A stretch of 64,000 nucleotides of DNA from Galbibacter sp. BG1. GTDB taxonomy: Bacteria; Bacteroidota; Bacteroidia; Flavobacteriales; Flavobacteriaceae. The stretch covers positions 1,054,501-1,118,500 of the forward strand of contig NZ_CP058364.1 in the NCBI RefSeq assembly GCF_013391805.1. The letters are read 5' to 3'. This document shows, in pieces, positions 7,462-56,269 of the stretch. How positions within the stretch are numbered: position 1 is the stretch's first letter; every line of letters starts with the position of its first letter. A program made the translations under genes and the position numbers. A model generated the notes under the pieces. It made no database searches, was not told where the DNA came from, and saw only the letters and a list, made by a program, of their open reading frames with translations.

Positions 7462-8066
7462 TGCGTGCATTTTCTAAGTTAATCAGTTTTATTTTCAATC
7501 CACTTTTTATTCCCTTGGCAGGAACGGCCTTGTATTTCTTGATTTCCCCAAAATACAACCCACCAGAGGCGCGAAAACTTATTTTACTGGCCATTGCAAT
7601 TGTAACCGTGGTCATTCCTTTTATTTTCTACCTTTTATTAAAAAACCTAGGGTGGATAACAAGTAGTGAAATTACACAAACAAAAGAACGCAAGCTCCCA
7701 TTAATTATTTGTACTATTTTAATTTACATAACACTAATAAAAATTACACCCATATCATATTCCAGCGAACTCTACTTCTACTTCGTAGGGATTTTAGGGG
7801 CACTTATAAGCGCCCTAATAATGGTTTATCTTAACTTTAAGATAAGTTTGCACACTATGGGCATAAGTGGCTTGGCGACCTTTATTTTAGGATTGTCCAT
7901 TCACTATGAAATAAATATCACCATGGGATTGGCATTATTGGTTCTTTGCCTAGGTATGGTAGCCACTGCAAGGCTTCACCTTAAATCTCATAAAGGACTG
8001 GAAATAATTGCCGGAATGTTTATTGGTGTCTTAACCCAATTCATAACGTTTGGCTATTGGCTATAG
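7461..8066 (+). CDS. polytopic membrane protein, possibly PAP2-like
   Basis: A 201-aa protein with about six hydrophobic segments and no signal peptide. It starts at the ATG whose A is the last base of the rpoN stop (TAATG), so translational coupling is likely. The segments around LHTMGISGLATF and TARLHLKSHKG recall the histidine-bearing motifs of the PAP2 phosphatase fold, but the full KxxxxxxRP/PSGH/SRxxxxxH signature is not complete. It may be a degenerate or distant member; activity is unproven. Its 3' end overlaps the convergent gene at 8061 by 6 bp, with no terminator between them. Confidence 0.6.
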   Translation: MRAFSKLISFIFNPLFIPLAGTALYFLISPKYNPPEARKLILLAIAIVTVVIPFIFYLLLKNLGWITSSEITQTKERKLPLIICTILIYITLIKITPISYSSELYFYFVGILGALISALIMVYLNFKISLHTMGISGLATFILGLSIHYEINITMGLALLVLCLGMVATARLHLKSHKGLEIIAGMFIGVLTQFITFGYWL

Positions 8067-8762
8067 AATGTAGAATATGAGGCCCGCCTTAAAAATTCTA
8101 GGCTCTAGAGCTTCCCCGTCGACCGTAAATTTATCATCTTCAAAAACATTAGAAAGATCGTACTGTGCATAAAAGTTCCAAGTGTTATACCCAAAACTAA
8201 GATAAACCCCGTACTGTATGTTTCTAATATCCGGATTGTCGAAGGTAAACTTAAATGTATCTGTTACCAATTTGGACTTTCCTGAAAGTAAATAAGAAAA
8301 CTTAATTCCGCTATAAATTCTCCAAAAACGATAGTTATCCGATTGGGAATTCCGCCAACGAAATTCAATGGGAAACTCAACGAAATTCATTTTAAGCATA
8401 TTCCTGTTATAAGAAAAATCATCAGGAATTTCTTGATAAAATATGTTGCCATTCTCATCTTTATCAGCCAGCAAATCGCTATATATGGAACTAATTGAAA
8501 GTCCGGCGCCCAAACCAAACCCAATATTTCGACGTCTATTTATTGGCAAGTCTTTTATAAAGCCTACAATAAAGTTATATGAAAAGCTACTTTGCCCAAT
8601 ATCGCTTGGTGCGCGAGTAAGTAAATTGTAATTAAGCCCTATATAGAATTGATCTTCAAAATATTTCTCATCGGCTTCCACTACCACAAGTGTATCACTT
8701 TGTGCACAAATAAAATTGGTTATAAATGCCGAAATTAGAACAACAAGGGACCTTAATTTCAT
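8061..8762 (-). CDS. outer-membrane beta-barrel protein (porin/PorT-like family)
   Basis: 233 aa. An N-terminal signal peptide (cleavage probably after ICAQ, residue 21) is followed by amphipathic strands typical of the small 8-10-strand barrels of the PF13568 type, ending in an aromatic strand (GLIFYIL). It is annotated in relatives as porin family or PorT-like. I would not equate it with the type IX secretion protein PorT/SprT on sequence grounds alone. It lies downstream of the ExbB/ExbD cluster but is separated from it by a terminator, and it overlaps the convergent upstream membrane gene by 6 bp. Confidence 0.75.
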   Translation of the reverse strand: MKLRSLVVLISAFITNFICAQSDTLVVVEADEKYFEDQFYIGLNYNLLTRAPSDIGQSSFSYNFIVGFIKDLPINRRRNIGFGLGAGLSISSIYSDLLADKDENGNIFYQEIPDDFSYNRNMLKMNFVEFPIEFRWRNSQSDNYRFWRIYSGIKFSYLLSGKSKLVTDTFKFTFDNPDIRNIQYGVYLSFGYNTWNFYAQYDLSNVFEDDKFTVDGEALEPRIFKAGLIFYIL

Positions 8763-8806
8763 GTATGATGTTTTACCGGTAAAGGTACAGCAAATAAGAA
8801 GTAAAT

Positions 8807-8843
8807 AAAAAACGCTTCAATCAAAAAGAAAGAAGCGTTTTTT
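8807..8843 (-). terminator. intrinsic terminator of the exbB-exbD operon
   Basis: Twelve-base perfect arms AAAAAACGCTTC (8807-8818) and GAAGCGTTTTTT (8832-8843) surround a 13-nt loop. The minus-strand tail is T-rich (TTTTTTATTTA). The plus-strand side is also T-rich, so it may work both ways. Confidence 0.75.
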
Positions 8844-8870
8844 AAATATAAGTTTAATTGAAATGTGTAT

Positions 8871-54447: not shown

Positions 54448-55272
54448 ATGTTTAACGATATTGTAAACTATTTAAAAGAAATAGACCCAACACTTGCCGC
54501 ATTTTACGCTACCTTATTTACATGGGGATTAACAGCGCTTGGAGCTTCCTTAGTGTTTTTCTTTAAAAAAATGAACCGAAGGCTTTTCGATGGAATGTTA
54601 GGTTTTACCGGAGGCGTTATGGTGGCAGCCAGTTTTTGGAGTTTATTGGCTCCCGGCATTGAAATGAGCAGTGGGGAAGGTTTTGTAAAAACCATTCCTG
54701 CGGTAACGGGATTTGCTTTAGGAGCACTCTTTATTTTTGCTTTGGATAAAATATTACCGCATGTACACGTGAATTTTAAAATGAGCGAAAGTGAAGGTAT
54801 AAAAACACCTTGGCACAAATCGGTTTTGCTTACCCTAGCCATTACCATGCACAACATACCAGAAGGCCTTGCTATTGGCGTATTGTTCGGTGGAGTGGCT
54901 GCTGGAATTCCAGAGGCATCTATTGAAGGGGCCGTTATTCTGGCACTTGGTATTGGGATACAGAATTTTCCTGAAGGCTTTGCAGTGGCTATGCCCTTGC
55001 GTGGTCTCGGGTTGAGCAGATGGAAAAGTTTTAATTACGGACAGTTATCTGCCATTGTAGAACCCATGGCGGCCGTTCTTGGCGCTTGGGCCGTACTTAC
55101 TTTTGAACCTATTTTACCATATGCACTTTGTTTTGCAGCAGGCGCCATGATTTTTGTTGTGGTAGAAGAAGTGGTCCCAGAATCTCAACAAGCCAACAAT
55201 ACAGATATTTCTACCTTAGGTTTTATTGGCGGCTTTATTGTGATGATGACGTTGGATGTTGCCCTAGGGTAA
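54448..55272 (+). CDS. ZIP family metal transporter
   Basis: 274 aa, about eight TM helices, GufA/ZupT-like branch. The metal-path motifs are HNIPEGLAIG in TM4 and QNFPEGFAVA in TM5, with the usual His-to-Gln change in the second. The loop HVHVNFKMSESEG after TM3 is His-containing. It imports divalent metals (Zn, Fe or Mn). The coupling to an MntR-like regulator 3 bp upstream favours Mn or Fe. Confidence 0.93.
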   Translation: MFNDIVNYLKEIDPTLAAFYATLFTWGLTALGASLVFFFKKMNRRLFDGMLGFTGGVMVAASFWSLLAPGIEMSSGEGFVKTIPAVTGFALGALFIFALDKILPHVHVNFKMSESEGIKTPWHKSVLLTLAITMHNIPEGLAIGVLFGGVAAGIPEASIEGAVILALGIGIQNFPEGFAVAMPLRGLGLSRWKSFNYGQLSAIVEPMAAVLGAWAVLTFEPILPYALCFAAGAMIFVVVEEVVPESQQANNTDISTLGFIGGFIVMMTLDVALG

Positions 55273-55297: not shown

Positions 55298-55728
55298 GAA
55301 GTATTCCTATAAAATACAACCCACTGATATTTACTTTCATTTCCAAACCTAGAATGGTTTTTACCTATGCTTTGGGGTATTTTAATGGTATTTATACGTT
55401 GGCAGGGGTGTCCACTTCCCCTTTTTAACCATCCTAATAGGTTACGGCACGTGTCCATTGGGGATTTTAACGTGTTCGTATACGTTGTTCAACCTATCCG
55501 ACGGAGCTTTTTTCGTGTCCCGATACGTTGGTAGACGTATCTGCTGGGATTTATCACGTATTCAGATACGTTATTGAACGTATCGGTTGGGTTGTCGAAC
55601 GTGTCAAGATACATTAATGCACGTATTGATCGGGGGTTTGAGCGTATCCAGATACGTCTGTGGACGTATCCGTCGGGGTTATTGAACGTATCTGGACACG
55701 TCTAGGGACGTATCGGAATGAGATTAAT
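55298..55728. repeat. array of 43-bp dyad-containing tandem repeats
   Basis: At least nine units are in phase, starting at 55341, 55384, 55427, 55470, 55513, 55556, 55599, 55642 and 55686; spacing is 43 bp throughout except the last (44). A tenth, decayed unit may start near 55298. The consensus is ACGTATCnnGATACGT, six bases, ACGTATC, then a G-rich yGGGgTT tail. GATACGT forms an inverted repeat both with the ACGTATC to its left and with the one to its right. The units decay toward the ZIP gene. A 43-bp period changes frame each unit, so it is not coding. It fills the gap between two convergent genes. Confidence 0.85.
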
Positions 55729-55819: not shown

Positions 55820-56269
55820 TTAACGATCCGCGGCTGAAGTATGATCGCTTATAATAAGCCATTGACCATCGAATTTTCGCCAGTTGAGTGTAAAATAACC
55901 ACTCAAATCCCCTATCCTACGCTTTAAATGAAATGACCCGATAAGTTGTGCCACCCCTTCTTTTACCTGCTGAATTTTAATAACTTCAAAACTTAGCTTT
56001 CCCATAGCTGTTGTATCGGGATAACTTTTTAGATACCTATTTTTAGTAGCTTCCCAACCAAAAACAGCACCACTAGAACCCACAAAAGCCAAATCTTTAG
56101 ATTTCCAGTAACCCTCCATAAAGGTTGGGATATCACCCCGATTCCATGCATTTTCCTGCTCCTTTAAAACTTCCAAAATTTCCGTTTTATTAATTGCTGA
56201 AATTTTTTCTTGAGCCGACATACCAAATGTTAGAAAACAGGCCGCAAATAAGATTACTATATTTTTCAT
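55820..56269 (-). CDS. secreted NTF2-like / DUF4440 family protein
   Basis: 149 aa with a signal peptide (cleavage near MSAQ, residue 20) and a single NTF2/SnoaL-like cone fold: WNRGDIPTFMEGYWKSKDLAFVGS and GYFTLNWRKFDGQWLIISDHTS are typical. Such domains bind or transform small molecules; the role here is unknown. It is convergent with the ZIP gene across the 43-bp repeat array. Confidence 0.8.
   Translation of the reverse strand: MKNIVILFAACFLTFGMSAQEKISAINKTEILEVLKEQENAWNRGDIPTFMEGYWKSKDLAFVGSSGAVFGWEATKNRYLKSYPDTTAMGKLSFEVIKIQQVKEGVAQLIGSFHLKRRIGDLSGYFTLNWRKFDGQWLIISDHTSAADR

Follow-up and report, generated by a model that had tools for sequence, protein, structure and literature searches.

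The element described here lies in the 64-kb stretch of DNA that was analysed (the window), in the gap between two convergent genes. A ZIP-family transporter gene on the forward strand ends at 55272 and a DUF4440 protein gene on the reverse strand ends at 55820. The intervening array of short palindromes was first pointed out in an earlier note made from the DNA letters, which correctly placed it in a convergent intergenic gap. The features of the locus are as follows.

54448 to 55272, + strand: flanking ZIP-family transporter gene (Pfam PF02535), outside the element; it has relatives in 7 of 7 genus genomes and serves as the marker of the empty site.
55341 to 55728, + strand by the genus consensus: phased palindrome array; its nine units of 43-44 bp each contain a strong and a weak 16-bp two-fold site.
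55341 to 55512, + strand: degenerate 5' portion, comprising units 55341, 55384, 55427 and 55470, with half-sites in phase; model match at 55433-55476, E=5e-5.
55513 to 55555, + strand: unit with TCGTGTCCCGATACGT and GACGTATC; model match at 55514-55563, E=1e-10.
55556 to 55598, + strand: unit with ACGTATTCAGATACGT and AACGTATC; model match at 55559-55605, E=7.1e-9.
55599 to 55641, + strand: unit with ACGTGTCAAGATACAT and CACGTATT, from the palindrome scan and the unit listing.
55642 to 55685, + strand: 44-bp unit with GCGTATCCAGATACGT and GACGTATC; model match at 55646-55685, E=6.5e-8.
55686 to 55728, + strand: last unit with ACGTATCTGGACACGT and GACGTATC, followed by a weak half-site; model match at 55686-55725, E=5.3e-4.
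55820 to 56269, - strand: flanking DUF4440 protein gene (Pfam PF14534), outside the element; it adjoins the ZIP gene without an array in G006, G002 and G004.

The half-sites ACGTATC and GATACGT are held on a 43-bp step across 55341-55728. The unit starts (55341, 55384, 55427, 55470, 55513, 55556, 55599, 55642 and 55686) are separated by steps of 43 bp with a final step of 44 bp, and all nine lie where the earlier note had put them. Its observation that phase is kept even where the 5' units have lost identity was confirmed by the reverse half-sites, which fall on the step (two mismatches or fewer) at 55393, 55436, 55479, 55522, 55565, 55608, 55651 and 55695, the degenerate 5' part included. The 16-bp palindrome ACGTATCnnGATACGT has five matches with at most two mismatches in the 64-kb window, every one of them within the array, while 100 shuffles gave a mean of 0.06 and a maximum of 2. 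The array can be described as a lattice in which ACGTATCnnGATACGT recurs each 21-22 bp, or two helical turns, with strong and weak copies alternating; the proposed helical phasing holds at this finer spacing of the 16-bp sites. Tandem Repeats Finder returned periods of 43 and 44 and detected the 3' part of the array only. Elsewhere in the window, a weak 21/42-type periodicity at 7801-8870 (score 10-11) barely reaches the lattice threshold given below.

The array belongs to a dispersed family. Allowing one mismatch, GATACGTnnnnnnACGTATC has 14 matches in the 3.71-Mb genome as against one for the reversed pattern, and this chromosome (G000) carries at least five arrays, near 0.387, 1.110, 2.402, 3.290 and 3.667 Mb, besides one isolated palindrome at 3.06 Mb. 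A check for like arrays in relatives, as the earlier note had proposed, found them, among the matches listed, in five of the seven genus genomes: this one, Galbibacter sp. EGI 63066 (G002), Joostella atrarenae (G003), G. pacificus (G004) and Galbibacter mesophilus (G006), the last four having 4-6 arrays each. Among the same matches G001 had no unit-model match and G005 two marginal ones. The suggestion of an undescribed repeat family agrees with this occurrence of dispersed arrays in the chromosome and its relatives. The consensus of 108 oriented units from 24 arrays, ACgTaTC-ca-GATACGT-Tgnnng-ACGTATC-cn-ttGggGT-tnnaa, is biased, as is its logo, towards the two boxes used to pick units, and from it the element is read as a 16-bp two-fold site each 21-22 bp, strong and weak in turn. 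Inter-box bases are similar inside one array and dissimilar from array to array. Based on open reading frames, the gaps holding 22 genus arrays are convergent in 6 cases, tandem in 13 and divergent in 3; location at the 3' ends of both neighbouring genes is therefore true of the window and fails as a rule. At two loci (L043 and L044) no array was seen by eye. Two oppositely oriented arrays in G006 (L038 and L039) share a flank beside the start of a gene that looks by eye like cpsB, as if one array had been duplicated together with its flank.

The copy in the window is a local gain, because three relatives (G006, G002 and G004) have the ZIP and DUF4440 genes almost touching, with a gap of at most about 45 bp and no array. 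In G003 and G001 the DUF4440 gene was not found within 1.5 kb of the ZIP gene. In G005 a 394-residue open reading frame that looks by eye like a transposase (L195:2453-3637) occupies the same gap as the window array, and this gap may be a permissive insertion site. Some other copies probably predate the split of G000 and G004, since both genomes have an array 3' of a gene read by eye as rimO, the two proteins being 93.5% identical.

Beyond the genus, an exact scan of 84,980 species, one genome each, for ACSTATCnnGATASGTnnnnnnACGTATM recovered 23 stretches, only in Bacteroidota. They come from Galbibacter/Joostella species, a Bacteroidales MAG, Phocaeicola abscessus, Epilithonimonas mollis, two Chryseobacterium and a Flavobacteriaceae MAG, and the lattice is visible in 9 of 9 stretches outside the genus. 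The exact array pattern was absent from viral contigs. The unit model, applied with strict filters to 397 family genomes, matched nothing beyond the genus at E 1e-4; as the exact scan did find other genera, the unit-model search misses arrays. Just past the arrays of L113, L120 and L122 (Epilithonimonas and two Chryseobacterium) there is a similar stretch of about 80 bp, as if it were a common end or recombination site.

Among the proteins encoded beside arrays one family recurs, with 154-162 residues and 39-90% identity, and the array starts approximately 76-113 bp past the stop codon of this partner gene (array borders are approximate). Five species have the linked gene: J. atrarenae and G. 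mesophilus, which count as one genus in genus-level tallies, the Bacteroidales MAG, E. mollis and Chryseobacterium sp. BGARF1. AlphaFold2, using a 15-row alignment, predicts an all-helical protein with a 55-residue helix (mean pLDDT 89, pTM 0.72), and the predicted fold had no PDB fold match below E 1. Invariant residues include Y43, G44, I46, N50, K51, L52, D73, D80, R84, K105, D109 and D111. Searches of Pfam, NCBIfam, PHROGs, PADLOC and the PDB (by sequence) returned no credible relative, and in the library scans (10 members against Pfam, 5 against NCBIfam and 4 against PHROGs) nothing exceeded a curated cut-off. Matches of L134 to phosphopentomutase (NCBIfam, E 8e-5, 21.5 bits against a cut-off of 256) and to phrog_473, a virion protein (E 0.008), and of L113 to phrog_2196, function not assigned (E 0.0025, 33 residues), were taken as chance. 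The partner was not found in plasmid records (query L113), phage records (query L032) or viral contigs. Its profile matched 25 of 395 genomes and 17 of 171 genera in a sample across Bacteroidota, and 5 of 236 genera in the family sample. No partner gene turned up in this genome, a single contig, or in G001 or G004; this genome and G004 carry ACGTATC arrays. In L141, L142 and L145 (the latter two from the same genome) an open reading frame that looks HTH-like by eye lies past the array, some 290-360 bp 3' of the partner gene, and could be a second component.

To the linkage of gene and array, 44 partner-gene copies contributed. They were retained from 52 loci (L125-L176) after L137, L170, L171 and L174 were dropped as fragments or partial and L139, L143, L169 and L176 as too close to a contig end; 10 more partner-profile matches lie outside the 52 loci. 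In the 600-bp stretches past the stop codons, repeated 6-mers are concentrated at lags of 21 (391 pairs), 22 (81), 42 (369), 43 (322), 63 (266), 64 (66) and 65 (55); no other lag between 10 and 70 exceeds 24 pairs. Over the 600 bp upstream of the gene the large values come from multiples of a 5-bp microsatellite, and 21/22-type peaks are missing. In L138 and L146, two loci of one genome, a 5-bp microsatellite lies a short way upstream of the partner gene and is possibly a variable promoter. When a lattice was defined by a score of at least 10 and at least three times background, it was present downstream of 25 of the 44 copies, upstream of 2 and on neither side of 17, the upstream arrays of L140 and L153 having been assigned after upstream scores were inspected. 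As a control, 4 of 58 segments behind open reading frames in the window pass, two of which are the array itself (2 of 56 for the others). In 23 named loci, which were chosen for their arrays, 18 of 137 segments pass, and one passing segment, in L109 (score 10), sits away from the L109 array. Within 1.5 kb of the partner gene, neighbour families are each confined to at most 3 of the 48 loci. The linkage of gene and array is general, not universal. A coding reading of the repeats was set aside: 43 is not a multiple of 3 and, although reading frames do stay open through arrays with a 21-bp step (L154/L173 has an antisense example), the partner gene family also has arrays with a 43-bp step.

The symmetry of the sites was evaluated by spacing and by covariation. 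Among 210 dyad matches at chosen loci, inter-dyad distances up to 70 bp are 21 (40 cases), 22 (45), 43 (32), 42 (1), 44 (1) and 63-65 (10), with no others; L177 and L189 contributed only to this distance and 16-mer pattern count. Among 133 distinct 16-mers, the bases on either side of the 2-bp centre are Watson-Crick complementary at a frequency of 0.70 versus 0.40 in shuffles (shuffle maximum 0.50); of 1000 within-array shuffles not one was as high, and the main types are CG (55) and AT (34). For pairs 3-14 and 5-12 the values are lower than in within-array shuffles (equalled or exceeded by 999 and 956 of 1000), and pairs 6-11 and 8-9 lie within the shuffled range; two-fold symmetry covaries at the innermost pair only. 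Signs of the selection on a symmetric protein site that the earlier note had raised are present in the form of this covariation across the 2-bp centre. The covarying pair on which that note had relied, the innermost one of the right-hand dyad with its 6-bp spacing, did not hold up: columns 17 and 22 are unpaired in 20 of 59 units from the genus and show a both-sided change once. These 59 were aligned out of 77 listed units, chosen by box pattern with at most four per array. Over the dyad with the 6-base spacer, both-sided changes occupy 2 of 472 cells versus 1.7 in shuffles, and for the 8-pair helix no measure rises clearly above shuffled units (90 to 270 of 500 shuffles reach the observed values). 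Covariation in the weak dyad exceeded all 500 shuffles and was not relied on, because a +2 slide scored higher; the 16-mer count, which takes in more dialects, put two of five pairs below shuffles. The covarying pair could not form in a hairpin whose loop is 2 bases long, and in the spacer dyad both-sided changes stay at shuffle level; this favours a symmetric protein site on DNA.

Half-sites can differ between arrays of paralogues in one genome, with ACGTATC, ACCTAAA, ACGTAAA and others represented. These dialects partly follow protein relatedness. Across 27 loci, proteins of higher identity tend to have arrays with more similar 5-mer profiles (Mantel r 0.54; 0 of 5000 permutations as high), and as linked gene and array are co-inherited this result is no proof of recognition. 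The G003 paralogues L125 and L130 have unlike arrays (cosine -0.03), and relatives across genomes have similar ones (0.68 for L125/L126, 0.59 for L130/L132). Exceptions were found. The L127 protein groups with L125 and L126 (69 and 64% identity) and its linked array is mixed, with a cosine of 0.07 to both and a nearer resemblance to that of its genome-mate L132 (cosine 0.42; 47% protein identity). Arrays of L126 and L135 in one genome have a cosine of 0.44, and L129 and L133 share one dialect.

Evidence for action in trans is mixed. The ACCTAAA-dialect pattern ACCTAAAnnTTTAGGT is in excess in two of the four genomes carrying a gene of that kind, with 52 matches versus 8 for the control in G006 and 12 versus 3 in G002. 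The other two are G003 (gene L130; 12 versus 13, several clustering at the gene and two arrays) and G005 (3 versus 7), whose gene L131 is a close relative with a weak CCCTAAA array. There was no excess in the genomes without the partner gene (matches/control 4/7 in G000, 6/8 in G001 and 0/4 in G004). Away from its gene, G006 has at least 12 clusters of two or more ACCTAAAnnTTTAGGT matches, and the 11 clusters inspected all show 21-bp steps.

The lattice, its dispersal, the dialects, the gene linkage and the local gain in the window are observed. We give an even chance to the explanation that the members of this dispersed family serve as phased docking arrays on which a symmetric protein, probably that of the partner gene, would sit. 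Sites each 21-22 bp would be presented on one face of the DNA, and a symmetric dimer of the partner protein would dock side by side along the array in cis and also on dispersed arrays of matching dialect. Docked dimers would form a nucleoprotein patch, array and partner protein would change together, and array copies would spread. As the pI lies below 7 in 38 of 43 partner proteins (the table holds 43 of the 44 copies, L159 missing), binding by the partner, the natural candidate, is something we infer. Because G000 has arrays and no partner gene, its copies may be orphans or may be read by another protein. Docking for chromosome organisation and a self-spreading element both fit. A more far-reaching account, to which we give somewhat less than an even chance, is of a new chromosomal system in which a small helical protein without known relatives is paired with cognate scattered phased arrays, several dialects per cell. 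The arrays might serve as docking platforms, for example in chromosome folding or anchoring, or constitute a self-spreading element with a non-transposase partner.

It is possible, with rather lower confidence, that the arrays are non-autonomous MITE- or REPIN-like selfish repeats whose copying preserves the dyads, the partner mobilising them or travelling as a passenger. Dispersal of the copies and the local gain in the window agree with this reading, as do nine G006 copies that fall into two alignment groups and whose differences are whole lattice steps (internal gaps of 21 or 42) and, so far as the consulted part of its description goes, the resemblance of gene plus adjacent repeat flavour to RAYT/REPIN. 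Inspection by eye of the aligned copies and the empty site revealed no terminal inverted repeats or target duplication, however, and the partner has no credible transposase or nuclease family match. Moreover, mere copying needs neither helical phase nor covariation at the centre.

An ordinary host regulator or nucleoid protein that binds the arrays, with gene linkage reflecting autoregulation or history, is unlikely. Such a protein would suit G000 and G004, which have arrays and no partner gene found, the acidity of the partner proteins and the HTH-like open reading frames past the arrays of L141 and L142/L145. It is at variance with the G003 paralogues, whose arrays are unlike each other and like those across genomes (L127/L132 and L126/L135 being exceptions), with the lack of any neighbour family shared by more than three of the 48 loci and with the presence of arrays in tandem, convergent and divergent gaps alike.

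A multi-hairpin RNA or a transcription terminator at gene 3' ends, among the readings of the earlier note, is very improbable. The inverted repeats with their 6-base spacer and the convergent gap in the window would accommodate it. Structure counts on three dyads, Rfam and a terminator scan gave it no support: the covarying pair flanks the 2-base centre while the 6-base-spacer dyad stays at shuffle level, the window array has no terminator-like site, and Rfam had no match over it, the two below-gathering matches in the window both lying outside the array. A terminator-like hairpin of their own lies within 150 bp past the stop in 16 of the 44 partner genes (controls: 0 of 44 in the interval 250-400 bp past the stop, 5 of 44 for antisense stretches upstream), and 11 of the 25 genes with a downstream array first end in such a hairpin. 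The orientation of arrays relative to genes also varies. Least probable of all is a neutral minisatellite born of slippage, which would explain the homogenisation of units per array and the gain or loss of whole lattice steps, but not that boxes and spacing are common to arrays and genera while inter-box bases differ (the choice of units favoured the boxes), nor that arrays unlike in sequence show a period of 21-22 behind members of one gene family.

Through these arrays an unannotated protein family (25 of 395 sampled Bacteroidota genomes) gains a candidate DNA target that is often readable beside its gene. A single cell harbours several protein-array pairs that differ in dialect, so that their specificity, their spreading and any part they play in organising the chromosome can be put to a direct test.

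Among known systems, iterons and plasmid centromere arrays are phased sites for a small protein encoded beside the array. In the present case a gene for the candidate binding protein adjoins the array in relatives (it was not found in this genome), and the arrays differ in being chromosomal and in many copies. With regard to a ParA-type NTPase or Rep neighbour, the commonest family within 1.5 kb is found at no more than 3 of 48 loci, families having been tallied overall rather than one by one. In the consulted portions of the open-access literature, including PMC5771137, PMC6749651 and PMC5524665, no account of this array system was recognised. In related bacteria many arrays lie behind the gene for an uncharacterised protein, and judged on that literature and the family libraries this looks like an undescribed system of protein and landing sites. 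The available part of a survey of prokaryote satellites (PMC6749651) describes intergenic, dispersed tandem repeats to which the present arrays are similar; its sole Flavobacteriia family is a 69-nt repeat of Flavobacterium psychrophilum, for which that part mentions no partner gene. BrickBuilt of Porphyromonas gingivalis is, in the accessible text, a MITE of 23-nt direct repeats with terminal repeats like those of IS5-family elements, and BLASTn matches outside the species are reported absent there (PMC4596501). As far as that text describes it, BrickBuilt shares with the present arrays the phylum Bacteroidota and dispersed, intergenic tandem repeats of about two helical turns. Unlike its 23-nt unit, the lags here are 21, 22, 42 and 43, with lag 23 at background (7 pairs). 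Identity with BrickBuilt was rejected, the nearest match to its terminal repeat GAGACCTTTGCA (at most two mismatches) lying 8 kb from the array. In REPIN-RAYT systems, according to the part consulted, dispersed extragenic palindromes are accompanied by single-copy genes, each beside a cluster of its own repeat flavour, and co-evolution is suggested (PMC3116915). Measured against that partial description, the present system is unlike REPIN-RAYT in that the partner matches no Y1 (HUH) tyrosine transposase family in Pfam, NCBIfam or PHROGs and in that the 16-bp palindromes form a continuous 21-22-bp lattice of about 300-500 bp instead of REP doublets. It is like REPIN-RAYT, on the same footing, in that the arrays are extragenic, palindromic and dispersed, with at least five in G000 and at least 12 second-dialect clusters in G006, and in that each partner paralogue has its own flavour, L127 and L129/L133 excepted. 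On the portions of these accounts that were available, REPIN-RAYT appears to be the known system, among those compared, that the arrays and their partner would most resemble in the way they work.
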